Positions 2,703-27,363 are shown, counted from the stretch's first letter. The stretch is DNA of 29,634 nt from a virus (IMGVR_UViG_3300025646_000225:1-29634), one strand, 5' to 3'. A program made the numbers and translations. Notes: generated by a model not told the origin, from the sequence alone.

Positions 2703-2707
2703 CACTG

Positions 2708-3793: not shown

Positions 3794-3820
3794 CAACCCA
3801 ACCCAGCACAGGAGGAAACT

Positions 3821-4735: not shown

Positions 4736-4736
4736 C

Positions 4737-5573: not shown

Positions 5574-5596
5574 TCTGAATCATCTCCCAGCGATCC

Positions 5597-5886: not shown

Positions 5887-5893
5887 GAGATTC

Positions 5894-6853: not shown

Positions 6854-6857
6854 CGAA

Positions 6858-13800: not shown

Positions 13801-13864
13801 ACCCGTCATCCTGACGGGGCATCTGCTGTGGACGCCTACTGAAAGGCGATCTGGTGATAGGCAT
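7883..13864 (-). CDS. Giant internal virion (ejection-type) protein
   Basis: Encodes 1993 residues, a fifth of the window. The N-terminus is Pro/Gln-rich; residues ~110-350 contain Gly/Ala hydrophobic stretches (LPGLGLTGKVLGLAGKGI; GLTDPLSYVTFGAGQWAG) that could insert in membrane. The middle holds long Ala/Arg/Glu coiled coils (e.g. ETRRSRAQRRQASAERRAER) and Pro/Ala linkers (PTAAAAPTPAPSAAP). Residues ~1600-1850 contain an aromatic block (YAISTPGFIVRNAMTAAFNN; VIPFWTFASRNMSLQ) that I associate with very large virion proteins of environmental phages. Position between other Ala/Gln-rich proteins and the lysin matches T7 gp14-gp16 or P22 gp7/16/20 ejection proteins. I see no lytic transglycosylase or RNA polymerase motif. 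Start forms a TAATG overlap. Confidence 0.85.
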   Translation of the reverse strand: MPITRSPFSRRPQQMPRQDDGWIDITTGQPASQPTGQPAPVQPVDSGGYQPVVPSSGDVSVPRVQPAAAVKDDTVTPADVQDVIQTQYERIVDDPSVSPERKQGLIEQLSTIAGGGTLPGLGLTGKVLGLAGKGIMEGLGWLPVGARGVQATFAEPFEALGMIGSGAALDVSGAYGAAAGRGPIPESEASVDVTPVPSGGRDVFRLPSERISTRRSWQEKVKDPNYMLTVPNIRDKVNKPTGVGWVDKLINGGLFIVDAGAELTFQGLTDPLSYVTFGAGQWAGQAGRAALTARLLQDDAVRAVPSLLENPQRLYRLGEWGLKRSERQALVQAGILEPEGIAWAWGSQGVLGGTGRAARAVGGTVARGRASVGDVLSKIGPRGGVPALATVGTRRNLIAAARNRGWNDAGGEARTAVLQYAGSLAARREAGITTAVLNSRYRGLLKELAESPYRNDIATLIEPGTTATTRQLPAEAQDLANRVTDAFEEMRQLYNMRMDGFRTKYGLNPNYAIDIPSIDNYFFHKVTPEMNRLIRTTKATDKTPWMSQVQEMIGVGAREMRQGGGPLRMRKLIAGEKFLDEELQTGSIAEINEIWRRKTNTDFDFFETDSAEVVSSYIDSISNQAARVAYFDRLFDYGTDAIRPVLEKVIPDKTLLKEAQDTLNTLNNERQGLIRRISNAVVRGEKKAGNKLVEIAEAVLRGSDDKWVQAEQAVAARQQELSNLAGQLKVLRTQADAQTANIRGSWEDMITALELRVASIEDAISRGEGAQEAARQYLLEQHSKMFPNRKKRPSDIRQLAAEVLERRENKFASKLKALETRRSRAQRRQASAERRAERLGVEASEITESVESINTRTTRLRALSEINFDSEVAPDGVVYTSEQYLQDLPDGGAAVFYPEASDIPDPIAIPAADIEQTYDLSSRLDDMQRVLTALDESAGEVIAELTGNQEYADWITVEVRRLMESPLGTEIDPRVPEQLAPLIQTIHGWGRSAETSDEIVQTYLAAMIDAVDIALADATEPLDPDTVIALVDDMIRGAASIDAGPEAARVMVSIPDVQLGGTKILMDPTETWNIYSGATDNVFAGIADGTLAWDDVVPQRTVIEPTAAAAPTPAPSAAPAVRQTFEATTDDSTRDALGRGVWVSDRKRAEAITELIADAKKAEKAGTINEFLSRLDDVADIGEKAELVKRALAAGRGASRSPFFAEVLDRFQMEVEFAVGRAAGGIGTDNFSRNVQQAASADPELFLRYTAEAAQSAGVKKPESWAKIPKAERDQLDAAVSQPTAAAAPEPVAAVEPTTQVTSTPLDAEMRLAEEREQLIARGQQIDPELEKAARADTEARAAAAAAGREIGTLRSGETRARQAIEQRVNVARGRERVDIGTGEPVTRGKAGQELRSEQRKLNKARSDMEREIQSDPVFKSIKQTERKVEAAATRFEAAEAAFVSQDDWQQSVRPLYEKEINDIRDALNSAPPAGAARQGATEWANRVQGVLDNLQTVQFTDKQRQAWDRVFTQLFGLEADLAKKEANIVIQQNVVNNIANSNIGGQVVKDILDGWVEIERLGVQIPRELYDEMTLGVRKLQDPKEWNAFMKSYLEYQRFFKAYAISTPGFIVRNAMTAAFNNLVAGITPLQQAKTFKFAREYYRNGLDAAFDSLSAADRPIFEEAFRAVVGSGGGQAIDEVMPLIRGKSSRIYNNAYTRWFQKRNEQAEIWGRMAMAIDGVERGFTLDQNSARIIRYHFDYSDTSRLDEVAKLVIPFWTFASRNMSLQIINQFTRPGMYQRYNDLRELTAGRASDYQFWPVWLREREPLQLGDGRYLNPDLPQIDLQQQLEQLLVPQRLLGQSNPLIRTAVEGLTQKSLAFDTPFGTKTQKAGVTDIPSAVLTELFGLTGGDVSGEFTDDGYQIGRFAQSVGPGLLPPLQQLQRYLKSGLSAAGQGPESPVQQAIGGSQRYAERDFWTTLGTYLGIPYGQLTPEQIQGELRRMEYAAKGVGR

Positions 13865-14913
13865 TACTGTGAGGCTTCCAGAACTCCGATACCCAACAAT
13901 TGTCTCATAGCGTCTTGGAAAGGTGTGCGACCCTTGGCGGCCAACGTGCGACCAGCACGGGCCGCACGCAACCTAGCAGTATCTTCCTCCGCACCAATGA
14001 TTGCCTTCAACGGATCAACCTGAGCCTGACGGGCCAACACACGCTGAGCACCAGACGGACCAGACACATCCGCAATCGGACCCGGCATCGCAGATGCCGG
14101 TCCGCCAGACGGCTTCGGCTTGAATGGTTCACGCCTAGCAGCCAACATTGATTCAGCCAACGTCCTAGTCGTGCCACGCTGCGTCGGCTTACGCAACGCC
14201 AACACCTGCTCGGGAGTGAACTCGTACTGCTGCCCCGGCGCAGGCAACTGCGCCAAAGCGGGCAGCCCAATCTCCGAGAAATAGTCACGACGCAACTGCT
14301 CGTAATCCAACGGTGCTTGCTCAGGCAGAGCGGCCACAGCCTGATTGTATGCCGCCAATTCCTGCTGATAATCCCGTTCAGCCCGTTGATTGAAGTCACG
14401 TTCGTTAGCGAGAATCTTCAAATCTTCTTCCAACCCAGCAGGTAACTGGACCGCAGGAGCCAAACCGAATCTTCCCGTGGTTTGCTGACCGCCACCCAAA
14501 GCGGTTTCCAAAGCAGCCAACTCGCCCTCAGGGTTACCGCCAAATAGATACACATTCAACAACGTCGTGTTGATCAAATCCAGTAACTCAGGATCATTCT
14601 GTGTGGCCGCACGCCACTTGTTCTGAATCTGCCCGACAATGGGGGTTTCGATAGGGGCAATGGGAGGCAACAACTCTGATTGTGAAGCAGCATAATCACG
14701 TTCAGCAGCCTGCATGGCTTGCAGCAAATAGTTGCGCAAACCTTCAGCCAACACCTGCTCATTCACCACACCGCTACCGACACCCAAAGCAGGAGTCAGC
14801 AACGCTGACAGATCGGTGCGGCTCAACCCCTGTTGAACAGCACTGATCGCATCAGGAGACAGGCTCGTAGGAACCTGCGCTGCCAGTAGTGCCGCCAACA
14901 TTTCTTCGTTCAT
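13864..14913 (-). CDS. Probable internal virion protein
   Basis: Encodes 349 residues rich in Ala, Leu, Gln and Pro, predicted mostly helical (MLAALLAAQVPTSLSPDAIS; RNYLLQAMQAAERDYAASQ). There are repeated Pro-rich turns (LPPIAPIETPIVG) and a C-terminal basic segment (RLRAARAGRTLAAKGR). No known domain is recognised. The start ATG overlaps the stop of the gene before it (TGATG), and its stop overlaps the giant gene's start, so the three are translated as a unit. Composition and position suggest an ejection protein partnering the giant protein; this is inference. Confidence 0.8.
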   Translation of the reverse strand: MNEEMLAALLAAQVPTSLSPDAISAVQQGLSRTDLSALLTPALGVGSGVVNEQVLAEGLRNYLLQAMQAAERDYAASQSELLPPIAPIETPIVGQIQNKWRAATQNDPELLDLINTTLLNVYLFGGNPEGELAALETALGGGQQTTGRFGLAPAVQLPAGLEEDLKILANERDFNQRAERDYQQELAAYNQAVAALPEQAPLDYEQLRRDYFSEIGLPALAQLPAPGQQYEFTPEQVLALRKPTQRGTTRTLAESMLAARREPFKPKPSGGPASAMPGPIADVSGPSGAQRVLARQAQVDPLKAIIGAEEDTARLRAARAGRTLAAKGRTPFQDAMRQLLGIGVLEASQ

Positions 14914-15953
14914 CAGCCACCCGCCTGCTTCAACTCGTAATCAAGAATCTCATCCTCAATAGCCTTCCGTGCAGCCGCCTCAGCGTTAGCGATCCGCTGT
15001 GCTTCAGCCAAACGGACAGCCTCCAAGTTGCGCAATCCTTCCTGCTGCATCAACACGCTGGCCGCCTGACGAGCGGCACGCTCAGCCTCCAAAGCAGAAG
15101 TCATACCAGACGAATACTGTTGGCTGGCAGCCAACTGCTGCGCCAACAACGCCTCATTCAACATGCGAACAGCGTCCACATCGGCACCACTTGCACCGAT
15201 AGCCTGAAGATAATTCATGCCAGCCGCCGCAGGAGTCTGCGTCTGCTGGACAATGAACTGGAACGCAGCCTCAGGATCAATCTGTGCTAGGCGTGCTAAC
15301 GCTTGTGCGCTGGCATCATCAATCGACTTTCGACTGGCCGCTGCGGCAGCCGCCAAAGCGGCACGCATCGGATCATACTGGGCTGACACACCAGCCAAAC
15401 GATCACGCAACAAATTGATTGCACCCGAATAGTCAGATCCAGCAGCGGCACCACCACCACCGCCACCTGAACCACCTGCACCACCAGCACCACCTGCACC
15501 GCCAGCCAAACCAGCAGCAATAGCGTTCTTCGTCCTAATGTTTTCAAGGGCCGTATCAAATTTTTCCAGCCACGGATCGTACAAACGCTCGTATTGGGTG
15601 GAACCCTTGCCGCCAGCGAACATGCTGGACATTGCGCCACCCAAACCGCCAGTTGTCAGTCGGTCCTGCCCACCATACTCGCGTTTCAACGCCTGTTCGA
15701 ACGCATCCACATCGCCCAACGACGGAGCAATCTGGCGGGGAGCGGGACGGCTCAGGCCACGATCCGACGGGGGACGATTCTGCTGGCTGGCATAACGTCC
15801 AGCAGTACCACCAGTCCGCTGACGCTCCAACTCGGCAGGGCTAGTCGGCGCAGAACGAACTGGAGTAGGGCGCTTCGGAATAGTTTTCTGCTTCTCGTCG
15901 TCAATCTGCCACGGTTGCCGCCTGATACGACGACTCAACATCCCATTAGCCAT
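14913..15953 (-). CDS. Probable internal virion protein with Gly/Ala linker
   Basis: Encodes 346 residues. The first ~90 are basic and Pro-rich. A low-complexity Gly/Ala hinge (GLAGGAGGAGGAGG and on, about residues 150-172) separates this from a C-terminal Ala/Gln/Glu-rich coiled coil (AAAAAASRKSIDD; ALEAERAARQAASVL; IANAEAAARKAIEDE). Such basic head plus flexible hinge plus coiled coil suits an internal core or ejection protein that contacts DNA, but no family is recognised. It is directly coupled to the next internal protein gene. Confidence 0.78.
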   Translation of the reverse strand: MANGMLSRRIRRQPWQIDDEKQKTIPKRPTPVRSAPTSPAELERQRTGGTAGRYASQQNRPPSDRGLSRPAPRQIAPSLGDVDAFEQALKREYGGQDRLTTGGLGGAMSSMFAGGKGSTQYERLYDPWLEKFDTALENIRTKNAIAAGLAGGAGGAGGAGGSGGGGGGAAAGSDYSGAINLLRDRLAGVSAQYDPMRAALAAAAAASRKSIDDASAQALARLAQIDPEAAFQFIVQQTQTPAAAGMNYLQAIGASGADVDAVRMLNEALLAQQLAASQQYSSGMTSALEAERAARQAASVLMQQEGLRNLEAVRLAEAQRIANAEAAARKAIEDEILDYELKQAGG

Positions 15954-15959
15954 AACGAA

Positions 15960-16196
15960 TCAACGCCCCCCCAAATCAATAGCACGACGACGGGACGCAC
16001 GGGTAGTGCGACCCGACCCACGACCTTTCTTCTGAGCCTTAGAGCGTGGATGCAACTGGTCAACGGCTTTTTCACCAGTCCAATAAGTCCGACGCTTCTG
16101 CGTCCTGTAAGTAGTCTTGCCTGAGCCACGGCCATAACCGTAACTAGAAGGAACAGTTCGCCTAGCGGGCTTCGACCAATCTTTGTCATCTCTCAT
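15960..16196 (-). CDS. Small Arg/Lys-rich basic protein
   Basis: Encodes 78 residues, dense in Arg, Lys, Gly, Ser and Tyr (RGSGKTTYRTQKRRTYW; RSKAQKKGRGSGRTTRASRR), with no hydrophobic core. Protamine-like composition suggests DNA or RNA binding inside the virion. The start has an AGGGG element upstream, and the gene is sandwiched between virion genes. It is one of three such basic proteins encoded in the late arm. Confidence 0.72.
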   Translation of the reverse strand: MRDDKDWSKPARRTVPSSYGYGRGSGKTTYRTQKRRTYWTGEKAVDQLHPRSKAQKKGRGSGRTTRASRRRAIDLGGR

Positions 16197-16204
16197 AATA
16201 ACCC

Positions 16205-16645
16205 CTAACTGAACAAGCCTGACATCGGCGCATACTGACGCAAAGTTTGCGCATCAGAAATAATCTGCTGCTGCCTAGACAACTGCAACTGATCCAAATA
16301 ATCCTGCAAATCCTGTGCCGCCTGCTGACGTTGCAACTCCAACCGTGTCTGCTCAGCCTGCTGCTCCGTAGCAATATCACCCAAACGCTGCTGCTGAGCG
16401 CCCACAAAGTCCTTCATGGCACGCTGGAAAACACCAGACCTGCCCAACCCGCGGGCCGTGAAACCAGTGATCTGAGGGGCCGCAGCCTGACGGTACGCCT
16501 TGGTAACATCACGGGTAGTGCGTTCCGTCCGTCTAGCCAAATCAGTCAAACCCAACTGGGTTTGCAGATTTGATTGACGAGCACGCCGACGAGCGCTGGC
16601 CTCAGCCAGCCCATAATTGGTGTCAGCAAAAGAAAAATCGGCCAT
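16205..16645 (-). CDS. Coiled-coil virion-type protein
   Basis: Encodes 146 residues from ATG 16645 (a GTG directly before it is in frame). Gln/Arg/Ala-rich and almost wholly helical: RRARQSNLQTQLGLTDLARR, then QQQRLGDIATEQQAEQTRLE, then QDLQDYLDQLQLSRQQQ. Gly-rich FTARGLGRSGVFQRA in the middle is the only non-coiled part. It has no Shine-Dalgarno but follows a copy of the TAGAACG-TAT promoter-like motif that ends at its start. Composition is like T7 gp14-type internal proteins. Function inferred from position. Confidence 0.75.
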   Translation of the reverse strand: MADFSFADTNYGLAEASARRRARQSNLQTQLGLTDLARRTERTTRDVTKAYRQAAAPQITGFTARGLGRSGVFQRAMKDFVGAQQQRLGDIATEQQAEQTRLELQRQQAAQDLQDYLDQLQLSRQQQIISDAQTLRQYAPMSGLFS

Positions 16646-16667
16646 CACATATACCTAGTTCGTTCTA
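16643..16667 (-). promoter_or_regulatory. Late promoter-like motif, copy 1
   Basis: Reading the - strand from 16667: TAGAACG, seven bases (AACTAGG), TATATGTG, then ATG of the coiled-coil protein. It lies in the only sizeable gap between the gene ending at 16682 and the one starting at 16645. Three other copies share the boxes and the exact spacing. Confidence 0.65.
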
Positions 16668-16681
16668 TAGTTATCCACAGG

Positions 16682-17056
16682 TTACGGTAAACACAGGACA
16701 TGCACCTTCACATCAGTGTTATTACGGTTATTGCCGCTAGTAGCCACAAGAAAATGGAGACCAATATTCGTATCATCCACTGAATCAATGTGGAAGGCCC
16801 CCTGATTATGTGTAGTAGAATCGACAAATGCCTCGGTGACCTGCACCACTGACGGTGTAAACGGGGCGTTATGCGGAAAAACCAACTCCCCAACCGCATC
16901 CGTAGTCCCCTCATAAACAAACCAATGCCCCACATTGCTAGAGAAATAGCGGCGCAAATATTCGGTCAACGACAAGAAGATGTTGCGCAACGGCAACTGG
17001 TCAGGGCCACGCAAACTGGTGAGTTGCGGGGCGAACCACGGTTCGTCCCGCCTCAC
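16682..17056 (-). CDS. Small putative virion protein after the nozzle gene
   Basis: Encodes 124 residues with a GTG start that overlaps the nozzle stop as GTGA. N-terminal half: PWFAPQLTSLRGPDQLPLRN and a helix (SLTEYLRRYF); C-terminal half is beta-rich (HWFVYEGTTDAVGELVFP; GLHFLVATSG). It resembles no family I can name. Coupling to the nozzle gene suggests a tail-associated or decoration role, such as a needle or plug component. That role is a guess from position. Confidence 0.7.
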   Translation of the reverse strand: MRRDEPWFAPQLTSLRGPDQLPLRNIFLSLTEYLRRYFSSNVGHWFVYEGTTDAVGELVFPHNAPFTPSVVQVTEAFVDSTTHNQGAFHIDSVDDTNIGLHFLVATSGNNRNNTDVKVHVLCLP

Positions 17057-18759
17057 GGCTTATAACCCCGTGGATTATATTTGAACGTGATGCCGTTCAC
17101 ACCCCACTTCGCTGAATCATTACTAGACAACTTCAACTGCACGGCACGACCCAAACCCAAACTGTTACCACGGGACACCTCAGACCCGAACGTCTGAACC
17201 CACTGCGACGGAGAACCCGCACCAGTAAACCCCTCGGCAGGCACATCAAACTGTCTCTTTAGCGTCAACGAATCCCAATCACGGTACACAGCAACCGACA
17301 AATCATAGGCAGCATACTCGCGGTTCAACACAAACTCAGGGCGACGCCAGAACTTCTTTGAATGCGCCGACCCAGCATCCTGCCACGACGTAACATAAAA
17401 AGAACTGAACGGGCTGAAATAACCCAACACGTTGTCCGTATACAAATTGCGATCAAAATAAAACACCTGCGGCTTCGTCGGATGAACAAACAACTCCTTA
17501 GAGTTGTTGTTCGAATCAACAAACAAAGCACCAGACCCCAACCCAAACCCGTCAGCAATCTGATATTTCGTCCAAGCACCAGACTTATCCAACGTAGAAT
17601 CCCACACATACGTCGAAGTCACATCATCAGACTGGGTTTGACCATCCCACTTCACATCGGAATCATCATACCCAACACCCAACGAATCAAACGTCAAACC
17701 TCCACCGGCATAAAGAATGCCGGTGTCGCGATAATTGACACCAATCATCGAATACGTTTCCGCACTGGTAGACACACCAGTCGGCAACGACACATACACC
17801 TTGCGGCCCACAGCAGACACACGCACCGCGGCCAAAGCAGTATCATTGAACTCGTTTGTGTCAAACAACGGGCGCAACTGCTCAAACATATAATCAACAG
17901 TGCGACCATCGTACACAAACAAACCGTTCTGGCCGTCAAAGAAATACAACCCAGTTTCTGTGGCCGCTATGGCACTGGGGTTGACACAACCAATATCTTC
18001 AGTGACGGTAACAACTTGGAAAGTGTCGTCACTGTAGCCATAGATCGCATAAATAGCGTGTTCTTTGAACACGACAATATGCCCGTTGAACGACACCAAA
18101 GCAGTAATCCCACGGCCACCGCCAACAACATCAATATAATCATCTTCACGCCACGACTCGGGGAACAACGGGTGAGAGAACCTAACCCTGTCGGGATATG
18201 ACGTACCGTCCTCGCCAGTGTACGCCACCCAGTTCCTGTCAATATGGAACGTCACATGCCTGCATTGCGGCATGTGACCAGTAGACGGTGACAACAAATC
18301 ATTCTGCCAAGCACCAGTACCATTAGCAGTCAACGCAGTCTTAGTGGTCCCGTCCCATTTGTGCGCACCAGAACCACACCCACAAGCAACATATGCCACA
18401 TCTTCATTGCCGTCAGACCAACTGGAAAACACTGCACCAAACGGACTGGAAGCCGTGCTGATGGTCGTATCAGCGAACGTCCCATCGCTGGAATAATAGA
18501 CGGTATCGTTAGCCGACAGCAACATTTGCGGAGTGTCGGATTCCCAAAACCACAGGTTCTGCGAAGTTCCCCAGTTCTGCGGCAACACGCCAGCCACATT
18601 CGTAGAACCCCATCGTTGAAGTCCACGCCGTTGAAACACGCCGCCCCGAGGATCAATGTCCACATTCAACAAGTCAGGCGACTCGTTGCTGTTTAGATTG
18701 AACACATCGGCCCGAAGATTCAGGCCGCCTGTGAAATCCTCAATGGCGAACGCACGCAT
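17053..18759 (-). CDS. Tail nozzle / packaged-DNA stabilisation protein (P22 gp10 / T7 gp12-like beta-propeller)
   Basis: Encodes 568 residues from ATG 18759, one base after the adaptor stop; an in-frame GTG at 18798 inside the adaptor gene is a less likely start. The N-terminus FAIEDFTGGLNLRADVFNLN and DLLNVDIDPRGGVFQRRG, followed by repeated beta blades (NGHIVVFKEHAIYAIYG; ATETGLYFFDGQNGLFVYDG; AVGRKVYVSLP), matches the propeller-type nozzle proteins of podoviruses. These form the hexameric tail end below the adaptor ring and retain packaged DNA. Gene order adaptor then nozzle is as in P22 and T7. Two perfect hairpins fall inside it (18251-18278; about 17704-17726). Confidence 0.82.
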   Translation of the reverse strand: MRAFAIEDFTGGLNLRADVFNLNSNESPDLLNVDIDPRGGVFQRRGLQRWGSTNVAGVLPQNWGTSQNLWFWESDTPQMLLSANDTVYYSSDGTFADTTISTASSPFGAVFSSWSDGNEDVAYVACGCGSGAHKWDGTTKTALTANGTGAWQNDLLSPSTGHMPQCRHVTFHIDRNWVAYTGEDGTSYPDRVRFSHPLFPESWREDDYIDVVGGGRGITALVSFNGHIVVFKEHAIYAIYGYSDDTFQVVTVTEDIGCVNPSAIAATETGLYFFDGQNGLFVYDGRTVDYMFEQLRPLFDTNEFNDTALAAVRVSAVGRKVYVSLPTGVSTSAETYSMIGVNYRDTGILYAGGGLTFDSLGVGYDDSDVKWDGQTQSDDVTSTYVWDSTLDKSGAWTKYQIADGFGLGSGALFVDSNNNSKELFVHPTKPQVFYFDRNLYTDNVLGYFSPFSSFYVTSWQDAGSAHSKKFWRRPEFVLNREYAAYDLSVAVYRDWDSLTLKRQFDVPAEGFTGAGSPSQWVQTFGSEVSRGNSLGLGRAVQLKLSSNDSAKWGVNGITFKYNPRGYKP

Positions 18760-18760
18760 G

Positions 18761-19435
18761 TCAGAATTCCAGCGAACCCCAACGATGCTTCCGTCCACCA
18801 GACGACAGCACCACAGGGGAGTATGATTCAGGCTTCATAATATCCCGACGCAAAAACGCCACACCATCATTGAATGCACGCTCATACTCTGCCGCCATCT
18901 GCGGCGCTTCCTGCGCCCTGTAGATATGCGACACCGCATAATAGACCAACGGCAAATCAAACCCGTCAGGCCCATCAACCGTACCCCCACTAGTAATCCA
19001 ATCATTAGGATTCCTGTAGGCACGAACCTTCAACGTGTAAACACCGCTGGGTTGTGGGAACAGATGCAACTGGTCAGCCCAGAACGCCACAAACATAGGG
19101 CGTCCCGGCGCATCAGACGCACCAATATAATAGTCCTCCGCCATATCATACGAAATCCACTCCAACCGAACATTCACCTGATCGACCAGAGAAACAATCT
19201 CACGAATATCATCATCCGTGTAATCATTGATCGTATACGACCGTTGATTCGCCACTGTGTTGAATTGGAACGACACCTCCAAATGAGGCCAACGTCGCTC
19301 CAAATCAATAATCCTGTTATAGCCGTCCTGAATATACAGATTCAACAAGGCGTCCGACACATCATCGGACTCGGTTTCTGTGATCGCTCTGGCATTGTCA
19401 CGAATCTGCGCTAGAGTCAACCTGCTCATCGCCAT
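18761..19435 (-). CDS. Head-tail adaptor (P22 gp4-like)
   Basis: Encodes 224 residues from ATG 19435, with GGGTGGT seven bases upstream; ATG 19429 is an alternative. Helical N-terminus (LTLAQIRDNARAITETESDD; LNLYIQDGYNRIIDLERRW) followed by a beta-rich centre (SYTINDYTDDDIREIVSL; WADQLHLFPQPSGVYTLKVR) and a C-terminal helical pair (AAEYERAFNDGVAFLRRD). This is the layout of phage adaptor proteins that dock under the portal. It overlaps the upstream zinc-finger gene by 38 bases and lies one base before the nozzle gene. Confidence 0.82.
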   Translation of the reverse strand: MAMSRLTLAQIRDNARAITETESDDVSDALLNLYIQDGYNRIIDLERRWPHLEVSFQFNTVANQRSYTINDYTDDDIREIVSLVDQVNVRLEWISYDMAEDYYIGASDAPGRPMFVAFWADQLHLFPQPSGVYTLKVRAYRNPNDWITSGGTVDGPDGFDLPLVYYAVSHIYRAQEAPQMAAEYERAFNDGVAFLRRDIMKPESYSPVVLSSGGRKHRWGSLEF

Positions 19436-19664
19436 CGACAACACCACCCTTCTTCTTGAATGACCTCAGATGACCCATACAGTATTCCGTGCCTTTGGCA
19501 CGCATACCCTCACAAGTATCCTCATTGGCCGTACATTTGTTCCCCCTGCCCACATACGGTGCGGACGGTGCCGCAATGCGAGCACCGTCCATATGCGCCA
19601 AACGAGCGTCCACAGCGGGACGACCGTACAAACTATGGGCTGGAACTGCCTGAATATTACTCAT
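19398..19664 (-). CDS. Small zinc-finger-like protein
   Basis: Encodes 88 residues from ATG 19664, directly after promoter-like motif copy 2. The centre has CTANEDTCEG, then EYCMGHLRSFKKKG: C-x6-C, ten residues, C-x2-H, a compact zinc site, followed by a Lys-rich patch. Similar small Cys/His proteins with a terminal CxGH occur in many actinobacterial phages. The C-terminus is acidic. It heads the adaptor-nozzle gene block. Role unknown; nucleic-acid binding is possible. Confidence 0.7.
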   Translation of the reverse strand: MSNIQAVPAHSLYGRPAVDARLAHMDGARIAAPSAPYVGRGNKCTANEDTCEGMRAKGTEYCMGHLRSFKKKGGVVDGDEQVDSSADS

Positions 19665-19686
19665 CACCTATAGGCGATTCGTTCTA
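19662..19686 (-). promoter_or_regulatory. Late promoter-like motif, copy 2 (closest to a T7 promoter)
   Basis: Reading the - strand from 19686: TAGAACG, seven bases (AATCGCC), TATAGGTG, then ATG of the zinc-finger protein. TATAGG after TAGAACG gives the best resemblance to the T7 consensus. A second GCCTATAGG lies just upstream (19694-19702), but that is explained by the coding end of the basic protein gene. Confidence 0.68.
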
Positions 19687-19687
19687 G

Positions 19688-20248
19688 TCAGTCCCTATAG
19701 GCCCGATCATCCTTGTAACGCCGATTGCGGGAAGCGGCACGATCACGCTTCTTCTCGGTAGCCATAGCAACAGTGCGGGCAGCAGCCTTCTTGGCAGCCC
19801 CACGCCTGACAGCAACCTGAGTACGACGGCGACCAGCATCAACCTTATCAACGCTGACAAGCCTAGCCTTGGAAGCAGCCTTCTTCTGGGCTGCACCCTT
19901 GCCAGCACCAGACTTCTTCTTTGGCGACATGGCAGGCGAACGACCAGCCAACGGACCAGCAGAACCAGTAGACTTCTTGCGAGGCTTCACACTGCTGGAC
20001 CCACCGCCAGCCTTCTTTACGGGGGCAGTACGAGCAGTCCGACCAGCAATCGTAGACGGGGCTTCGCCGGGACGACGCTTTGATTGCGGCTTTGTCTTGG
20101 CCCTTGGCGGAGCCTTCGGAGCATTCATCATCTTGCTGTAACCCATAGGATTAGCAGCAACCTCAATCGCCGCCTTACCCAGACGCTTGGCAATCGACTT
20201 CTTCTTGCCAGCCGAATCATAATCCTTGTAACCCTTACCCTGAGGCAT
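19688..20248 (-). CDS. Histone H1-like Lys/Ala-rich basic protein
   Basis: Encodes 186 residues from ATG 20248 (TAGGTGA upstream). Begins MPQGKGYKDYDSAGKKKSIA and then becomes a long basic low-complexity stretch of Lys, Arg, Ala, Pro, Ser and Gly (RPGEAPSTIAGRTART; GAGKGAAQKKAASKARL; RGAAKKAAARTVAMA), resembling the C-terminal tail of H1 or bacterial histone-like tails. It probably binds DNA non-specifically. Being encoded two genes after the capsid protein, it may be packaged with, or help condense, the genome; this is inference. The 3' end touches promoter-like motif copy 2. Confidence 0.75.
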   Translation of the reverse strand: MPQGKGYKDYDSAGKKKSIAKRLGKAAIEVAANPMGYSKMMNAPKAPPRAKTKPQSKRRPGEAPSTIAGRTARTAPVKKAGGGSSSVKPRKKSTGSAGPLAGRSPAMSPKKKSGAGKGAAQKKAASKARLVSVDKVDAGRRRTQVAVRRGAAKKAAARTVAMATEKKRDRAASRNRRYKDDRAYRD

Positions 20249-20250
20249 GA

Positions 20251-20475
20251 TCACCTACCCTTCCGTCGGCCAGCAGCCGACTTTTTGCGTGGAGCGCCAC
20301 CCTTGAACGCAGTGCGACCACCAACAGTTTTTCTCGGATACTTCTCAGGATAACGGTCAGGACGAGTAGACTGAATGCTACGACTATAAGAACGTACAGC
20401 CCTAGTGTAAGCCCGAACAGGAGCAGCCAAAGCGTCACCGATATCTCCCAAATCAATAGCAGGTTTCTTAGCCAT
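20251..20475 (-). CDS. Small basic protein downstream of the capsid gene
   Basis: Encodes 74 residues. The N-terminus (AIDLGDIGDALAAPVRAYTR) could be an amphipathic helix; the rest is basic (RPDRYPEKYPRKT; GGAPRKKSAAGRRKGR). The start has AGGGG five bases upstream, and that element lies inside a hairpin (see 20481-20500). Its stop is three bases before the next start. Possibly a head decoration or DNA-binding protein; no family recognised. Confidence 0.72.
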   Translation of the reverse strand: MAKKPAIDLGDIGDALAAPVRAYTRAVRSYSRSIQSTRPDRYPEKYPRKTVGGRTAFKGGAPRKKSAAGRRKGR

Positions 20476-20480
20476 GTTAT

Positions 20481-20500
20481 CCCCTGAATGCGATCAGGGG
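20481..20500 (-). promoter_or_regulatory. Hairpin over the ribosome site of the gene after the capsid gene
   Basis: On the - strand CCCCTGA (20500-20494) pairs with TCAGGGG (20487-20481) around loop TCGCAT. The 3' arm holds the AGGGG Shine-Dalgarno of the gene at 20251-20475. Bases 20497-20500 are shared with the large hairpin just upstream, so the two folds exclude each other. Confidence 0.5.
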
Positions 20501-20524
20501 GAGAGGGCCGAAGCCCCCTCCCCC
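20497..20524 (-). terminator. GC-rich hairpin with TTCG tetraloop after the capsid gene
   Basis: On the - strand a 5' arm GGGGGAGnGGGC pairs with GCCCnCTCCCCC around the very stable C(TTCG)G loop; one mismatch. It begins about 20 bases after the capsid stop codon. No T-run follows, so it may stabilise the 3' end of capsid mRNA or attenuate downstream expression rather than terminate fully. This would make capsid protein more abundant than the products downstream. Confidence 0.65.
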
Positions 20525-20543
20525 AGAATCAATTGTTGATTGA

Positions 20544-21485
20544 TCAGGCGGTGCGGCCCGTCAACTTGCCCTGCTTCGCACGGTTGCGGCAGGTCAAGTT
20601 TCCGTAGCACATGATCAGAGCGTAACGGGCATCCAGATTCTCAGGACGCACGAAATCGGTCTGCTCAAACCACTTGCCCGAGTGACCAACGAGGGTCAGG
20701 TACTTGCTGTTCAGGAAATACATGACACCCGCCTGACAGTGAACGTCGTAGGTGACGGGAGCCGACTTGAACAACAGGTTCTGGAACCCAGCGTCAGCGG
20801 TCTTGGCATCGGTGTACCGCAACTGCGGCTGAAGCAGCGACTCGTACTTCTCAAAGAGAGTCTGAGTCGTCAGCACCATGTCGGGATGGTCGTTACCAAC
20901 CGACACCGAGTTGTAAGCGGTAGCCATGGCAGCGAGGGTGAGAGCACCAGCGGTACCCTCCTCGTAAGACTGCCAGAAGGAGTTGCCAACGCCAGTGGCG
21001 TCAATGCCACCGACGGTGCCAGCCGAATCAACCAGAGCCGCAAGCCCCAGCCAGTCCTTGCCCGAGTTGCCAGTGCCATCGGAGAAGAACATCTGGTTGA
21101 AGCCCTCACGCATCGACTCCTCGGCCTGCATGATCTTGGCCTCAAGAAGATTGATGATAGCAGCCTCGCCGTTGTTCTTGGCTTCCTCAATGCCCGAGAT
21201 AGCGATGGACGCAGCGTACTGCTTCCAATCGTACTCGGCAGCCGACATGCCTTCCTGAGCGGTCAGCGAAATGGTGTCGTAACCCGAGTACGAACCGACG
21301 GTGCCGTTGAGGCCGTAAACCAACGGCTCCACGATCTTCGTGCCGCCGTCCAGCATGCGGACACGGCCCTTGTCCATCAGGAAGTTCGTCAAAGGACGAG
21401 CAGTGAAAATGTTGTCAGTCAACTGATCCCGATAGTTGGCGAGAGTAGTCGAAAGCAACGAATCAAAATTGGCGTTACCAGCCAT
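20544..21485 (-). CDS. Major capsid protein
   Basis: Encodes 313 residues from ATG 21485 with GAGGT upstream. The N-terminus (ANFDSLLSTTLANYRDQLTD, NIFTARPLTNFLMDKG) and the segment after it (GGTKIVEPLVYGLNGTVGSY) have the look of HK97-fold coat proteins with the N-arm and spine helix region (AAIINLLEAKIMQAEESM). The C-terminal part (DMVLTTQTLFEKYESLLQPQ; PVTYDVHCQAGVMYFLNSKY) matches the A- and P-domain pattern of this family. It follows the scaffold gene, precedes a strong hairpin and uses a narrow codon set typical of a highly expressed gene. Size and order after portal and scaffold support the call. Confidence 0.88.
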   Translation of the reverse strand: MAGNANFDSLLSTTLANYRDQLTDNIFTARPLTNFLMDKGRVRMLDGGTKIVEPLVYGLNGTVGSYSGYDTISLTAQEGMSAAEYDWKQYAASIAISGIEEAKNNGEAAIINLLEAKIMQAEESMREGFNQMFFSDGTGNSGKDWLGLAALVDSAGTVGGIDATGVGNSFWQSYEEGTAGALTLAAMATAYNSVSVGNDHPDMVLTTQTLFEKYESLLQPQLRYTDAKTADAGFQNLLFKSAPVTYDVHCQAGVMYFLNSKYLTLVGHSGKWFEQTDFVRPENLDARYALIMCYGNLTCRNRAKQGKLTGRTA

Positions 21486-21518
21486 GATGTTACCTCAATT
21501 CTAAAGAAACGGAACGGA

Positions 21519-22304
21519 TCACATACCCATCTGTTGCTTGGCAAGCGCCCAAGCCTCATGGATGGAACCGACCTTCCCCACAGGCTGATCCGAAGGACCG
21601 TTCGCAGAAGCACCACCCTCAATGAAAGCGGCCTCACGCTTGGCATCCACCACCTGCTGATTCTGGTTAGCCAAAACCTGCTCGGCAGAAGCCTGCGTTT
21701 GAATCTTCTGCATCAAACGATCATAAGCAGTCTGCTTGTAGACCGCCTCCAGATCGGTTGTTCCCATCCGCAAAGCGGCGGTAACAACTTGCTGTGCATC
21801 AAAGTCATCGTATGTGGATTGTAGACGAGAAATTTCCCGCTGCAACTGCTCGTTAGCACGCTCTGTCTCATACTGCTGTAGGCGCTGCTCGGCTTCCCAC
21901 ACACGCTGCTCCAAAGGATCATCGAACTGTGGGGTTTCGGGCTGCGCATCCGCCACCATCTGCTGGGCTGCTGCTACCCCGTAATGACGGGACAACACCT
22001 GCAAGGTGCCTTGCGGATCAGATTCAAGAGCCTGCTGCAAAGTCTGCGCAAACTGGAACTGTTCCCGTTGAGAAGCCAACTCTTGAGTCTTGCGAGTATA
22101 ATCAGCCTGACGTTGATATCCCTGAAGCGCCTCACTGAAAGGCACATCCAGTTCTTCACCATCAACCTTGACCTTGACATACTTTCCATCGAAAGCAGTC
22201 GGATCAACATACTCGTAAGACGGAGAATCAACTTCTCCTGTTTCTACTCCCGTGGTTTCCCCGACAGATTCGGGACCAACTTCAGTAGTTTCAATTTCAG
22301 ACAC
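21519..22304 (-). CDS. Scaffolding / capsid assembly protein
   Basis: Encodes 261 residues with a GTG start at 22304 (AGGAG upstream). Acidic N-terminus (EVGPESVGETTGVETGEVDS), then KYVKVKVDGEELDVPFSEAL, then a long Gln/Glu-rich coiled coil (TQELASQREQFQFAQTLQQA; EQRLQQYETERANEQLQREI) and a short C-terminal helix (SIHEAWALAKQQMG), which is where scaffolds usually bind coat protein. Position between portal and major capsid genes is classic. It would shape the procapsid and then exit. The leader contains promoter-like motif copy 3 and a normal ribosome site. Confidence 0.85.
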   Translation of the reverse strand: MSEIETTEVGPESVGETTGVETGEVDSPSYEYVDPTAFDGKYVKVKVDGEELDVPFSEALQGYQRQADYTRKTQELASQREQFQFAQTLQQALESDPQGTLQVLSRHYGVAAAQQMVADAQPETPQFDDPLEQRVWEAEQRLQQYETERANEQLQREISRLQSTYDDFDAQQVVTAALRMGTTDLEAVYKQTAYDRLMQKIQTQASAEQVLANQNQQVVDAKREAAFIEGGASANGPSDQPVGKVGSIHEAWALAKQQMGM

Positions 22305-22336
22305 AAAGTCTCCTATCCAGAGTCCACTCAGGTTGC

Positions 22337-22361
22337 TCTACTATATAGAAAATGCGTTCTA
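22337..22361 (-). promoter_or_regulatory. Late promoter-like motif, copy 3 (before scaffold-capsid)
   Basis: Reading the - strand from 22361: TAGAACG, seven bases (CATTTTC), TATATAGT. Unlike the other copies no start codon follows at once; the scaffold GTG is ~37 bases further on behind an AGGAG. This copy separates the promoter signal from any start-codon signal and argues that the motif is transcriptional. Confidence 0.66.
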
Positions 22362-22365
22362 AAAA

Positions 22366-24141
22366 TTAGATCATAGGCGGCATGGGCGCACCCTCGGGGG
22401 GCTGCCCAGCCGCCAAAGCCGCCAACATCATAGGATCAATCGGCGGAGCACCAGCACCCATAGCACCCATAGCATCCACAGGAGGGGCGGGCATCGGAGG
22501 CGCACCCATCGCCATCTCGTCAGGCTGTGGCTGCTCGGGGGTGGTCATAAACATCTCGGGGTTCTTCACACCAAACCCGAACTGCAACACATAGGCACCC
22601 AACTTGGCTACGTCAATAACACCAGCGGAAACAAACGGTGCCATAGCGTCCACCATCTGCAATGCAGACTGGCGACGGTACGCTTCGTTAGTCGGCTGGG
22701 TTGATCCAGCCGCCACCTCGAAATCAAACTCGCCGTCAATATAGTCACGGTCAAACGTGACCCACATCGGCTCGCCATCACGGGCAGTGATGCGAGCCAC
22801 CTGCTCGCCAGTCATAAACTGCTGGGCCAACTGAAGAACACGGCGACCCAACTTGGCGATACACGTTTCGATGACGGCCAACTTGTCCGCAGTCCTAGCG
22901 TTCTGCGCATCCTGAATCAACGCCGCCTCGGTAGCGGTGCGGCGAATCTCCGATACGCCGCCACGCATAAACTCGGTGACACCAGAAATCAATTCGATAT
23001 CAGTGCGAATCAACTCTGATTGATTGTAGAACTCTGGCGGGTTGATTAGCGCGGGGAACGGAGCAACCGCATCAGCCAACGGCATGTCGCCCTGCACAGG
23101 GACCATCACGTTATCTTCATCCGATTCCAAAGCGGCACGACCGTTTGAATCAAAGTTCGTTTCACGGTACAAATACTTGCGGGCATACCGTTTGCGATGA
23201 TTCATCATCTGGGTGCGAGTTTCATTCAACTCACGTTGCATCGGCTCAATTGCTTCCAAATCGCCCATCGGGTAGAAACAATCAGGGATGTCATAGTTCC
23301 GCAACATGACAAACGGATGACCGAACGCATACGGCTGCTTCTTCGGCTTGATCAAGAATGATTCGCCACCATCAGCAAACACCGACACCGTGTTGTTCTT
23401 CAAATCATAAAACTCGTACACATCGGCATAACCTTCGTCCTTGTCATGAATCTTGCGGGACGAAGGATCATCAGTGTAACGGGCATACGAAACCGCAGGC
23501 ACATCCTCACGGGCATTCTTGGCGTACCGTTTATCTGTACGGACATCATTCAACGTGCGACGAACACGATGACAAATCCACTTGGCATCATCCATGCTGG
23601 TCGCATCAGGGTCAACGAACACATCGAACGGAGAAACACGCTCTACGAACGGCTCATCTTTCGTGACCACCAAAGTCGTGCTAGTGACATTCTCCTCAAC
23701 ATTAGCATCCGACACATCTTCAAAGTCACCGACACGTTCCTCCTCAACATAACGGTACCCGACCTTCAACCAGCCGTGACCAACAATAAGAAAATCTTTG
23801 ACAGCGGAACGGAAATGATCTTTGAAGTTTCGGTGCCGCCACCAATAGTTCACCACCGCTTCAGCAATAACAGCCTGACCTGCATTATCAGGATTCACAG
23901 CATTCACCGTGATCTTCGGATAGTTCACCGAAATCGACGGGGCAATCACGTTCACCGTAGAGAACGCAAGGTTTACCAAAATGCGATCTTCCTCGGCGTA
24001 ATGCTCGTAATGCTTGCCTTGATACAAGTCCACCAGACGACGCCAAGTATCATCATAATATTCCTCACGCCGCCAACGCTTAGACTGCGTAATCTTCTTG
24101 CGATATTTCGCAAGAATCTCGTTATTACTAGGGCGTGCCAT
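22366..24141 (-). CDS. Portal protein
   Basis: Encodes 591 residues from ATG 24141 (TGATG overlap with the holin-like gene; an open extension upstream has no ribosome site). Helical N-terminus (NNEILAKYRKKITQSKRWRR), then VNLAFSTVNVIAPSISVNYP and VKDFLIVGHGWLKVGYRY, typical of podovirus/siphovirus portal cores. Further on come FVERVSPFDVFVDPDATSMDD and ELISGVTEFMRGGVSEIRRT, familiar portal signatures, then a Met/Pro/Gly-rich tail (MGAPPMPAPPVDAMGAMGAG). Forms the dodecameric DNA gate. Position between terminase and scaffold supports this. Confidence 0.9.
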   Translation of the reverse strand: MARPSNNEILAKYRKKITQSKRWRREEYYDDTWRRLVDLYQGKHYEHYAEEDRILVNLAFSTVNVIAPSISVNYPKITVNAVNPDNAGQAVIAEAVVNYWWRHRNFKDHFRSAVKDFLIVGHGWLKVGYRYVEEERVGDFEDVSDANVEENVTSTTLVVTKDEPFVERVSPFDVFVDPDATSMDDAKWICHRVRRTLNDVRTDKRYAKNAREDVPAVSYARYTDDPSSRKIHDKDEGYADVYEFYDLKNNTVSVFADGGESFLIKPKKQPYAFGHPFVMLRNYDIPDCFYPMGDLEAIEPMQRELNETRTQMMNHRKRYARKYLYRETNFDSNGRAALESDEDNVMVPVQGDMPLADAVAPFPALINPPEFYNQSELIRTDIELISGVTEFMRGGVSEIRRTATEAALIQDAQNARTADKLAVIETCIAKLGRRVLQLAQQFMTGEQVARITARDGEPMWVTFDRDYIDGEFDFEVAAGSTQPTNEAYRRQSALQMVDAMAPFVSAGVIDVAKLGAYVLQFGFGVKNPEMFMTTPEQPQPDEMAMGAPPMPAPPVDAMGAMGAGAPPIDPMMLAALAAGQPPEGAPMPPMI

Positions 24142-24317
24142 CAGGACTTGATATAGGTTTGGGCGACACGACCAACAAGGTTCCACACCGCAATCGCACC
24201 AGCGATAGCGGCAGCCTTGAAGAACGACACATCAAACACGGCGGCAGTCAACGGCGAAGCAGTAGCACCCGCAACAAACGTAGCAACCGCCCTGTGGAAA
24301 GCATCCTTATAGTTCAT
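24141..24317 (-). CDS. Holin-like small membrane protein
   Basis: Encodes 58 residues: MNYKDAFHRAVATFVAGATA, then a hydrophobic region continuing FFKAAAIAGAIAVWNLVGRV and ending QTYIKS. Two possible membrane segments (about 10-27 and 33-50) joined by a short loop, with Ala/Gly-rich faces, as in small r1t-type phage holins. The start overlaps the previous stop (TGATG; GGGAG upstream) and the stop overlaps the portal start. Paired with the neighbouring membrane protein it would form pores to release the endolysin. Holin is inferred from size, topology and partner; a membrane protein of other function is possible. Confidence 0.65.
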   Translation of the reverse strand: MNYKDAFHRAVATFVAGATASPLTAAVFDVSFFKAAAIAGAIAVWNLVGRVAQTYIKS

Positions 24318-24517
24318 CAGTTCTCCCTATCTAGATGCCACTCAATGTGGTCATCCAATCGGCCATCAATCTTATCAACCTTATAATCAATGCGATGCAA
24401 CAGTTCACTGTTGCGAGCATGATCCTTATTGTTTTCCCGTCGTGTCTTTTCAATCAACGTGGCAATGATGCCACTGGGGGCCAACACGGCCAACACGATC
24501 TGCAACCAAGACGCCAC
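24317..24517 (-). CDS. Membrane-anchored coiled-coil protein (holin/DUF2746-like)
   Basis: Encodes 66 residues from GTG 24517. One N-terminal membrane helix (WLQIVLAVLAPSGIIATLIE) followed by a charged helical tail (HRIDYKVDKIDGRLDDHIEW). This single-helix plus coiled-coil layout matches small proteins found in actinophage lysis regions (DUF2746- or BhlA-like). With the two-helix protein next to it, it may form a two-gene holin system. No clear Shine-Dalgarno. It lies far from the endolysin gene. Confidence 0.65.
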   Translation of the reverse strand: MASWLQIVLAVLAPSGIIATLIEKTRRENNKDHARNSELLHRIDYKVDKIDGRLDDHIEWHLDREN

Positions 24518-24523
24518 GGCAAA

Positions 24524-24739
24524 TCAATTCACACGTTCTGGCACCACGCCATTGGCCTCAGCATTGCCAAGGATATCACGTTCCCGCTCCCTGAGGGTCG
24601 CACCATGAAAGTTGTCCCTACCATAAGTAAATCCAAGGTTCACCGACTTCACATGACAGCCGAAACAAATAGCCCCCCGACGAGGAACCACATCAAACGT
24701 GAAGGTTCGGCCACAATTCTCACAGATCAAAGTACCCAT
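24524..24739 (-). CDS. Small zinc-ribbon protein
   Basis: Encodes 71 residues from ATG 24739, immediately downstream of promoter-like motif copy 4. Contains CENC (residues ~6-9) and CFGC (~26-29): two CxxC knuckles ~16 residues apart, a zinc ribbon. The remainder (NLGFTYGRDNFHGATLRERE) is charged. Similar ribbons occur in phage packaging or small regulatory proteins. It lies just after the terminase gene. Role unknown. Confidence 0.7.
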   Translation of the reverse strand: MGTLICENCGRTFTFDVVPRRGAICFGCHVKSVNLGFTYGRDNFHGATLRERERDILGNAEANGVVPERVN

Positions 24740-24761
24740 CACAAATACCGATATCGTTCTA
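24737..24761 (-). promoter_or_regulatory. Late promoter-like motif, copy 4 (after terminase)
   Basis: Reading the - strand from 24761: TAGAACG, seven bases (ATATCGG), TATTTGTG, then ATG of the zinc-ribbon gene. It sits in the 24-base gap after the terminase stop codon. No Shine-Dalgarno is present before this ATG. Confidence 0.62.
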
Positions 24762-24763
24762 AT

Positions 24764-26356
24764 CTAGCGCATATTCGACCGATTCCGCACATTGTAAGAA
24801 GAAATCGGCACCCGTCCCGGCGATTCCTCCGTCATCAAGAACTGTTCCCACCAAATCAAACTGTTCGTAGGGATCGGGGTACCAGCATCATACTCAGGCA
24901 ACCAAACATACTTCAACATCTGATTAGCAATAGCCAGCGATATCACACGGTCATCGTGTGGGCTGCCCGTCATCCTACCATTATCCTTGCGCACATAGGT
25001 ACGCAACTCCCCAATAGTCATGCTGCACAGAATCTCCAATGATTCCTCACGGATAGCGGCAGCCAACTCGTCAATCATCAACGGCTTAGAGGTGGCGCTA
25101 GTGCGCCACCCCAGAATGTCAGTAGGTTTCGCCCGAGCCTGAGCAAGTCGGCGCTGCTTATAAATATTCTTATAGCCGTACCGTTGAATAGCCTTCAGCG
25201 TGGTTAGACCGTGGTTGTTATTCTCAACGCCCAACAGGGCGTTGTTGTAAAATGAACCCAACTCTGCCAGCAACGCACCAAACAAATCGGGGGCAATGTG
25301 ACCATGCCAGTGAGCGACCACAAGACCGCTGTTGGCATCGATCACATGGGCGGAACTGAAGTCGCCGTAAGATAAACCTTCGGCAACGTCAGCCCCCACA
25401 ACGTACACGCCGTCCTCAACTGGTTCTTCCCACATGCGGAACGGCCCCTCGGATGCTTCCTTCAAACCATGCCATTCGTCGTTGTCATAAATGAAATCAC
25501 CGACAGCGGGTTCCGCAGGTTGAATCATTGCCAACACATCAACATCAAACACAGGGTTACCTGATTTGATAAACGCTTCCTCAGGCAACCTAGGGTACTC
25601 TTGATGCAACTGCCACAACGGTGTGGTCCGTTGCTTGACCTCGTACCATGCTTCGTCACGGTCACCAGCAGACCACGGGAAAAACAAACCTTTGAACAAG
25701 TTGGTTCCCGTCTGGGAACCAACCCACATCTGGTGAAAAAAGTTGCCGGAACCGTTGGCCGTGGACAACGTGATGATTCGTCCGCCGACATCAGCAATCG
25801 GCTCAATAGAAGCCCACGCTTCCTCCGAGTTCGGTAGGAACGCCATCTCGTCCACGATCACCAGATACACCGATTCGCCACGGGCAGGATCATTGCTGGA
25901 CGGTAATGATTCGACAGCCGATTCGTTATCAAACACCATCTTCAACTGGTGGTCCGTGATCTGCGATGGGCCACGTTCCTTCATCCATTGCGGTAGCCAA
26001 CGATATCCATACTTGGATTTTTGCAATAGTTTGGCGGCCTCACGCTCCGTCCGACTTAGCATGACAATAAACCTGTCAGACCAAAAAAACACAAGCCAGA
26101 AAGCGTATGCCGCCGCAAGCGTTGAAAACCCTATCTGACGGGCCTTCAGCACAATGTTGTAGCGGTTGTTGTGCCACGCTTCAATGGTTTGCTGTTGGGC
26201 TTCCCGCAACTCAAACAATATCCGACCCCGTTCAGGGTGTCGGATAAACCAGTAGTTCTCACAAAAATAGAAGAACCCTTGGACTTGTTCGTCGGGGGTG
26301 TCGCCACCTTTGCAGGAACGCCATTCACGTTCCAACAACAGTTCGTTTAGTTCCAT
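24764..26356 (-). CDS. terL: Terminase large subunit (packaging ATPase-nuclease)
   Basis: Encodes 530 residues. Seen in order: ATPase Walker A-like LKARQIGFST (70-79), Walker B YLVIVDEMAF (164-173, D169/E170), coupling motif TLSTANGSG (196-204), then the nuclease: GADVAEGLSYGDFSS (D323), GVENNNHG (E378) and SPHDDRVISLAIA (D468/D469). All parts of a working TerL are present. It cuts concatemeric DNA and drives it through the portal. No small terminase subunit is recognisable in this window. The start lies six bases after the Gly/Ser-repeat gene. A perfect 10-base-pair hairpin (25700-25723) lies within it. Confidence 0.93.
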   Translation of the reverse strand: MELNELLLEREWRSCKGGDTPDEQVQGFFYFCENYWFIRHPERGRILFELREAQQQTIEAWHNNRYNIVLKARQIGFSTLAAAYAFWLVFFWSDRFIVMLSRTEREAAKLLQKSKYGYRWLPQWMKERGPSQITDHQLKMVFDNESAVESLPSSNDPARGESVYLVIVDEMAFLPNSEEAWASIEPIADVGGRIITLSTANGSGNFFHQMWVGSQTGTNLFKGLFFPWSAGDRDEAWYEVKQRTTPLWQLHQEYPRLPEEAFIKSGNPVFDVDVLAMIQPAEPAVGDFIYDNDEWHGLKEASEGPFRMWEEPVEDGVYVVGADVAEGLSYGDFSSAHVIDANSGLVVAHWHGHIAPDLFGALLAELGSFYNNALLGVENNNHGLTTLKAIQRYGYKNIYKQRRLAQARAKPTDILGWRTSATSKPLMIDELAAAIREESLEILCSMTIGELRTYVRKDNGRMTGSPHDDRVISLAIANQMLKYVWLPEYDAGTPIPTNSLIWWEQFLMTEESPGRVPISSYNVRNRSNMR

Positions 26357-26362
26357 AGAAAG

Positions 26363-27004
26363 TTATTGCGGTACAGTATACGGCTTCCGCTTAGACCACT
26401 TGGGGGGCAGAACAACCAGCAGATCCAAAGATTCGCCAGCGTTCTTCCACTGCGCCAAAGAATACGTCCCGTTGCCAGAACTGGTAGCAGTCTTGAACGT
26501 GGTCGTGAAGGCATCCACAGACGAACCGCCCACACCAGCCCCACTAGCGGTACGCAACGACGCTTTGGCAGACACAATGCTGTGTCCACCGACACCAGAC
26601 CCGCTGGCCGTTTCAACAGCGGTACGCAAACTTGTAGCCGACTGAGAACCTGCACCAGAACCAGTAGCGGCATCGACAGCGGTACGCAAACCAGTAGCAC
26701 TGTCACCGGCTGTGGCACCGCCACTGCCGGTGGCAGTACGGGGAACAGTAACAACACCAACACTGGTGGAGGTTCCTGTGCCAGAACCGTCTGCGGTACG
26801 GAACCGTACCTTCAGACTGGTGGTGGAACTAGTGCCAACACCACTGCCGCTGGCAGTTGCGTTGACAACAACCGCACCCTGATACGAAGAAGTTGTTGAA
26901 CGGTAACCAATGTTCGGATCGGTGTATGCGTTCAGTACCTCAACGCCTTCAAACGTGACGTTGATTTGATCGTATGTGTTGGTGTCGTCATAAATCAACG
27001 ACAT
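26363..27004 (-). CDS. Gly/Ser/Thr-rich tandem-repeat protein
   Basis: Encodes 213 residues from ATG 27004 (AGGTGA upstream, two bases after the previous stop). After a 45-residue start (IYDDTNTYDQINVTFEGVEV) it consists of about six imperfect repeats of 20-24 residues on the pattern TA-x-GSG-x-G-x-x-S-x-x-x-LRTAV. The last is followed by a conserved tail (LLVVLPPKWSKRKPYTV). DNA of the repeats also recurs: GCGGTACGCAA in + orientation at 26547, 26619 and 26679. The repeats look like beta-strand/turn modules of a fibre or adhesin. It sits between fibre genes and terminase; surface exposure is inferred. Confidence 0.72.
   Translation of the reverse strand: MSLIYDDTNTYDQINVTFEGVEVLNAYTDPNIGYRSTTSSYQGAVVVNATASGSGVGTSSTTSLKVRFRTADGSGTGTSTSVGVVTVPRTATGSGGATAGDSATGLRTAVDAATGSGAGSQSATSLRTAVETASGSGVGGHSIVSAKASLRTASGAGVGGSSVDAFTTTFKTATSSGNGTYSLAQWKNAGESLDLLVVLPPKWSKRKPYTVPQ
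26547..26689. repeat. DNA repeats inside the Gly/Ser-repeat gene
   Basis: Three copies of GCGGTACGCAA at 26547-26557, 26619-26629 and 26679-26689, 72 and 60 bases apart (multiples of 3). They match the LRTAV turn of the protein repeat. In-frame spacing means copy-number change by recombination would keep the gene open. Confidence 0.6.
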
Positions 27005-27006
27005 GA

Positions 27007-27363
27007 TCAATCACCTACGTCGATCTGAACCCAACTAACAGTGTCCTCATCCCAAACATAAATCGGTCCGTCATCAGGATACGCAACGGGAGCATCCCAC
27101 AGACAAGTTGTTTCGTTCAGCACCCATGACGGATAAGGCTGTGGCGGAATAAAAGCATCACGACCCTCATCGTAGGTGTAGCCGATTCCCGCATAGTTCT
27201 TTCGAATGTTGCCGTTGTATGAAGTGCGGACACAACGCTGGCCGTGGAACTCTCCATAAAACGCTTCCCAATCAGAAACGTCGTCAACAATTTCGTATTC
27301 ATGGCGACCAACAATCACATCAGTCACAATGTTGTCATCATCTAGAAATGCGTAGTGTGCCAT
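27007..27363 (-). CDS. Conserved tail-region protein of unknown function
   Basis: Encodes 118 residues from ATG 27363 (TAATG overlap with the Gly-rich gene). The order MAHYAFLDDDNIV, WEAFYGEFHGQRCVRTSYN, RKNYAGIGYTYDEGRDAFIP, PYPSWVLNETTCLWDAPVAY and YVWDEDTVSWVQ is a pattern I know from many marine and freshwater phages, where it accompanies tail fibre genes and has no established function. It is small, acidic and aromatic with no signal or membrane segment. It could be a fibre cap, chaperone or adhesin tip. Confidence 0.75.
   Translation of the reverse strand: MAHYAFLDDDNIVTDVIVGRHEYEIVDDVSDWEAFYGEFHGQRCVRTSYNGNIRKNYAGIGYTYDEGRDAFIPPQPYPSWVLNETTCLWDAPVAYPDDGPIYVWDEDTVSWVQIDVGD

Follow-up and report, generated by a model that had tools for sequence, protein, structure and literature searches.

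Spaced copies of a short element, TAGAACG followed after seven bases by TAT, precede the late genes of the phage studied here and most probably serve as phage-specific late promoters (probability about 0.85, judged from the sequence and its conservation). At roughly even odds, their specificity would come from a small early protein resembling region 4 of σ factors that works with the host core RNA polymerase. The window, i.e. the whole stretch of DNA that was analysed, is one linear IMG/VR record of 29,634 bases (IMGVR_UViG_3300025646_000225) with two convergent arms: replication genes (PD-(D/E)XK nuclease, DnaB-like helicase, AEP primase and RusA) are encoded on the plus strand, virion and lysis genes on the minus strand (Table 1). 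A tRNA-Leu (CAA) gene, the sole match of an Rfam scan, sits exactly where the two arms meet. Gene starts were called mechanically, save where a conserved protein fixed the start.

The phage belongs to an abundant, uncultured aquatic group with hundreds of public contigs, of which we found no cultured member. Its GH25 endolysin indicates a bacterial host. A host search among cellular genomes returned one MAG contig only, a related phage contig (L126, PAYF01000019.1) binned in a Euryarchaeota MAG; this contig is probably mis-binned, since the phages encode a GH25 endolysin. For this group, the boxes described below provide a testable late-transcription switch, promoter letters specific to each clade for use in annotation, and a single candidate protein of ~100 amino acids.

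TAGAACG boxes at the heads of late gene blocks

The first-pass annotation had described four copies of TAGAACG-N7-TAT on the minus strand, confined to four gaps between late genes. All four are present at these places with zero mismatches, and no further TAGAACG occurs in the window on either strand. That the copies lack a matching –35 element was likewise borne out by a sequence logo, which shows no conserved –35-like block in the 40 nt upstream. The number of copies is in itself unsurprising: shuffled sequences contain the 7-mer 1.85 times on average, and 16 of 100 shuffles reach four. The signal lies in position and conservation. Three copies end two bases ahead of a GTG-ATG start pair; with start-proximal positions making up ~2.9% of the minus strand, three of four copies would fall there by chance with a probability of ~1e-4. 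The fourth is located between the portal and scaffold genes, ahead of the leader of the scaffold gene. As had been proposed, the copies divide the late genes: they are spaced and promoter-like, stand where late blocks begin and, in the group, are nearly confined to the late strand. A hairpin inside the box was considered as a general feature and rejected, as it is present in some copies only.

Table 1. Features of the window discussed in the text, in order of position.
Feature	Position	Strand	Remarks
Early/replication arm	45..6790	+	no TAGAACG box in the window
Second possible DNA-binding early protein	45..662	+	variable C-terminus; weaker candidate
σ-region-4-like early protein, ~106 aa	5566..5886	+	GTG start at 5566 picked by eye; listed ORF 5365-5886
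tRNA-Leu (CAA)	6781..6854	+	
Late arm	6858..29558	-	packaging, virion and GH25 endolysin genes
1993-aa virion-region protein	7883..13864	-	
Box ahead of gene 16205-16648	16651..16667	-	exact match
Box ahead of gene 19398-19667	19670..19686	-	exact match; relatives keep it
Scaffold protein gene behind the leader	21519..22304	-	PHROG 3927
Scaffold leader, TAGAGCAACC-N5-GGACTCT	22319..22340	-	possible 5′-terminal hairpin of scaffold mRNA
Box ahead of scaffold-gene leader	22345..22361	-	exact match
Zn-finger gene	24524..24742	-	start codon fixes geometry
Box TAGAACG-N7-TAT ahead of Zn-finger gene, terminase/portal interval	24745..24761	-	exact match; kept in clade A

Conservation of the box and geometry of late gene starts

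Several hundred related contigs were gathered by a capsid-protein scan. In near relatives, a motif search recovered TAGAACG at matching gaps with the gene order kept, while neighbouring bases vary. The box at 16651..16667, for example, is retained in G002 (431+), L010, L019 and L063. The scaffold gap offers an unselected check, as its loci were found via the leader, independently of the box, and TAGAACG is present in all 15 loci of the clade that contain the leader. The reported seven-base gap followed by TAT stood only in part. It is exact in all four window copies, but the complete TAGAACG-N7-TAT is restricted to the window and its nearest relatives, the TAT columns are 52-67% identical within the window's clade, and in relatives a loose AT-rich box lies at no fixed distance.

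In related clades, the matching gaps contain GGAAC[AG], GTAAC[AG] or [TC]GAACG (TTGAACG, GCGAACG); ahead of the Zn-finger gene, other clades have GTAACG, GGAACA or TTGAACG instead of the window's box. AAC is the invariant core and GNAAC the form shared group-wide. The version of the box is largely uniform within a phage and changes together between clades. In an unbiased test, we counted all 6-mers shortly ahead of gene starts in the three main clades, and the box ranked first in each: TAGAAC (16/82 vs 2.0 expected, log10 p –9.7), GGAACA (51/385 vs 8.3, log10 p –23.8) and TAACGA (29/148 vs 3.2, log10 p –18.7), with two GTAAC sub-clades agreeing when taken separately. Among the distinct sites adjacent to a start or leader, 151 of 163 are on the late (capsid) strand, and the helicase lies opposite to the capsid strand in 31 of 31 contigs. 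Taken together, this strand bias and the clade-specific uniformity are as predicted for late promoters whose specificity is set by a factor acting in trans. No GNAAC box was found in the most distant relatives, whose σ4-like protein is divergent, so that the proposed link between box and protein applies to the clades studied.

At most sites (79 of 124), 15-17 nt separate the end of AAC from the ATG; the scaffold leader TAGAGCAACC follows AAC after 13-16 nt. This shared position of start codon and leader suggests a transcript start there or slightly upstream, and late transcripts should be nearly leaderless. The Zn-finger gene constrains the start further. Its methionine stands at a constant offset ahead of the first Cys in all clades, which excludes a classical ECF –35 element with a start ~30 nt downstream for this gene. 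The leader arms TAGAGCAACC and GGACTC are nearly invariant, even across clades with different boxes, while the loop varies in length (45 distinct leaders); the leader possibly forms a 5′-terminal stabilising or protein-binding hairpin.

Relatives carry extra copies beyond those of the window, some of which are oriented towards the other arm and lie at the divergent end (G001 1365-, G004 14643+, G002 20890-). Directly past boxes facing the opposite arm, we also observed a conserved pair of G-tracts, GGGGGGG-ACTATA-GGGGGGG or GGGGGG-AACCTACGGA-GGGGGG, often followed by a hairpin (G009 31502-, G029 661-, G027 7484-, G018 29211+, G046 1271+ and G047 3182-; variants in G025, G026, G028, G038, G039 and G041). 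By analogy, this arrangement recalls promoter-plus-G-tract replication primers.

Candidate reader and competing explanations

Either a phage polymerase or a phage σ factor had been suggested to read the boxes. The polymerase was not found (see below), whereas a σ-like factor fits better, and its best candidate would be the early protein encoded at 5566-5886. This protein matches Sigma70_r4_2 just below the cut-off (E 2.8e-5) and DUF1492 only at E 0.026. The PDB neighbours of its AF2 model (pLDDT 84) are region 4 domains of ECF σ factors, at high probability and with weak E-values (best 0.016), and include Mtb SigL and E. coli σE region 4 bound to –35 DNA. An ECF-type region 4 is thus present by structural model and by a sub-threshold Pfam match. 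Homologues occur in 31 of 36 grouped contigs, that is, in every contig spanning the region; the other five do not cover it, since the neighbouring helicase is missing there too.

The class of the recognition helix matches the class of the box in 31 of 31 contigs. Both classes track the phage tree, and the box classes require the minimum or a near-minimum number of changes on every gene tree, so a test based on independent switches of box and helix had none to count. The match is therefore consistent with coevolution and is not independent proof of it. On this evidence, we consider it about an even bet that the σ4-like protein reads the box. In the sequences, a GNAAC box (TAGAACG in the window's clade) lies ~15-17 nt ahead of the first codon of a late block, or 13-16 nt ahead of the scaffold leader, with a loose AT-rich box downstream and one box version per clade at all sites. 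In the proposed mechanism, the σ4-like protein would bind the AAC box as ECF σ region 4 binds GGAAC, replacing or sitting beside the host σ factor's own region 4, possibly alongside a σ2-like partner. The host core RNA polymerase would then initiate just past the AT box, either on the start codon or a few bases before it, so that late mRNAs would be nearly leaderless. The start codon is too near the box for a usual –35 element, which counts against a region-4-bound box in the classical –35 role and leaves the mechanism inferred. Against it also stand the failure to find a σ region 2 in 25 contigs, the weak E-values of the PDB matches and the missing GNAAC box in the most distant relatives. A more specific version, in which a stand-alone region 4 ("mini-sigma") redirects the host polymerase from an AAC box ~15-17 bp from a nearly leaderless start, is tentative; compared with ordinary two-box promoters, the box would have moved towards the start by about a helical turn or more. 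If the protein works as proposed, it would be a minimal σ-like device acting unusually far or near relative to ordinary start sites and would bear on how phages can reuse σ region 4.

In several phages, the σ4-like domain is fused to a MazG-like protein of the PHROG 1485 type (L094:8980-9789 -, L101:3177-3950 +, L107:7852-8661 +, L296:8434-9249 + and others); in the window, the MazG-like protein is a separate neighbour. A second early protein, encoded by gene 45-662, was considered as box reader and set aside for its patchy distribution (21 contigs, with most GTAAC-clade phages lacking it) and the lack of any match in a structure search. Its family shares the N-terminus (CLCDV...W) and differs in the C-termini among clades. 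The protein may be a second regulator.

Among the alternatives, a single-element late promoter resembling those of phiEco32 (tAATGTAtA) or of T4 late genes has perhaps one chance in four. Here, TAGAACG itself would be a –10-like box, read by a divergent phage σ2-like protein with the host core polymerase and starting transcription 6-8 bp downstream; the σ4-like protein would be a co-activator like T4 gp33, or irrelevant. A start at this distance falls upstream of every start codon (PMC8948821), and a single element agrees with the missing –35 block. On the other hand, Sigma70_r2 (σ region 2) matched nothing in 25 contigs in a search that recognised 10 of 14 controls and that a divergent domain could escape, and the invariant AAC core is closer to an ECF –35 box than to a –10.

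The proximity of most copies to start codons would also suit an operator, an RNA-processing site or a translation signal, and we regard such a non-promoter role as improbable. For the scaffold copy, ~57 nt and a leader with a ribosome-binding site separate the box from the start codon, some copies face the other arm, and in relatives a terminator-like hairpin just upstream of the box often closes the preceding unit. Slightly less probable still is that the box is read by an alternative σ factor of the host, without need of a phage factor. Mtb σH recognises GGAAYA (PMC6411747), so that the GGAACA of one clade equals the mycobacterial σH –35 consensus, and the endolysin speaks for a bacterial host. 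Yet a host ECF σ factor requires a –10 element ~17 bp past the box, i.e. inside the genes, where the start codon follows AAC by 15-17 nt and the logo contains no conserved box downstream of AAC, and the letters of the box change by phage clade, at all sites.

T7-like promoters, suggested by the superficial likeness of TAGAACG-N7-TATAGG to TAATACG-N6-TATAGGG, are very improbable, as the single-subunit RNA polymerase family (PF00940) matched none of 29 records, none of 8 in a repeat that included T7 as a positive control (detected at ~1e-109) and none of five genomes with end repeats (G002, G024, G025, G038, G042). Nor is there a rigid, contiguous consensus of ~20 bp extending to the start site: conservation is limited to the 7-mer, its distance to the AT-rich box varies, and the shared core is GNAAC. 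A virion polymerase within the 1993-aa protein was rejected, since this protein has no DxDxD or HDS motif and its one chance-like DxxGR is missing in the G002 and G008 orthologues. The sole very large protein of G002, a genome of 34.4 kb taken as complete by its exact 110-bp end repeat, is likewise free of polymerase motifs. PHROG and Pfam searches gave no match for the 1993-aa protein, whose versions in relatives have 1538 and 1794 codons.

Comparison with known systems

Because the group fits none of the T7-type, full ECF and Ltr systems, we call these elements a variant of phage-specific late promoters; open-access papers contained no description of them that we could find. With T7 promoters, the boxes share a superficial likeness of letters and the placement at block heads, and differ in the missing single-subunit RNA polymerase and the variable TATA distance. 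Ltr, RinA and ArpU of phages of Gram-positive bacteria recognise a series of repeated sites that lies well ahead of a single late promoter (PMC13123087). They resemble the proposed system in that a small early DNA-binding protein activates late genes with the host RNA polymerase, whereas the boxes described here occur singly, at several gene starts that are apart from one another.

ECF σ factors such as Mtb σH share the region 4 fold and the AAC/GGAACA box, AAC being the –35 box of ECF σ factors (PMC8103513). The present system differs from them in that no region 2 was found and that the distance from box to start is too short for a –35. Region 4 is also encoded as a separate small protein in the split σ factor SigO-RsoA of Bacillus subtilis, for which, in contrast to the phage protein, the region 2 partner is known (PMC8103513).

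The late promoters of phages phiEco32 and 7-11 are the closest functional relatives. The middle/late promoters of phiEco32 (tAATGTAtA) are read by phi32_gp36, a protein without region 4 homology (PMC8948821). They share with the boxes described here one short element at late block heads, no –35 block and an expected start 6-8 bp downstream, a distance compatible with the geometry observed; the letters differ, and here only region 4 is recognised. Late promoters of Salmonella phage 7-11 (GTAAtg-N16-aCTA) are recognised by the phage σ factor SaPh711_gp47 together with host RNA polymerase (PMC8948821). Spacing to the AT box is 16 in phage 7-11 vs ~8 here, where the start codon is almost immediate and the candidate factor consists of region 4 only. 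In both systems, several late blocks are preceded by a GTAA-type upstream and a CTA-type downstream box, the phage factor (here a candidate) contains region 4, and the gene set is podovirus-like.
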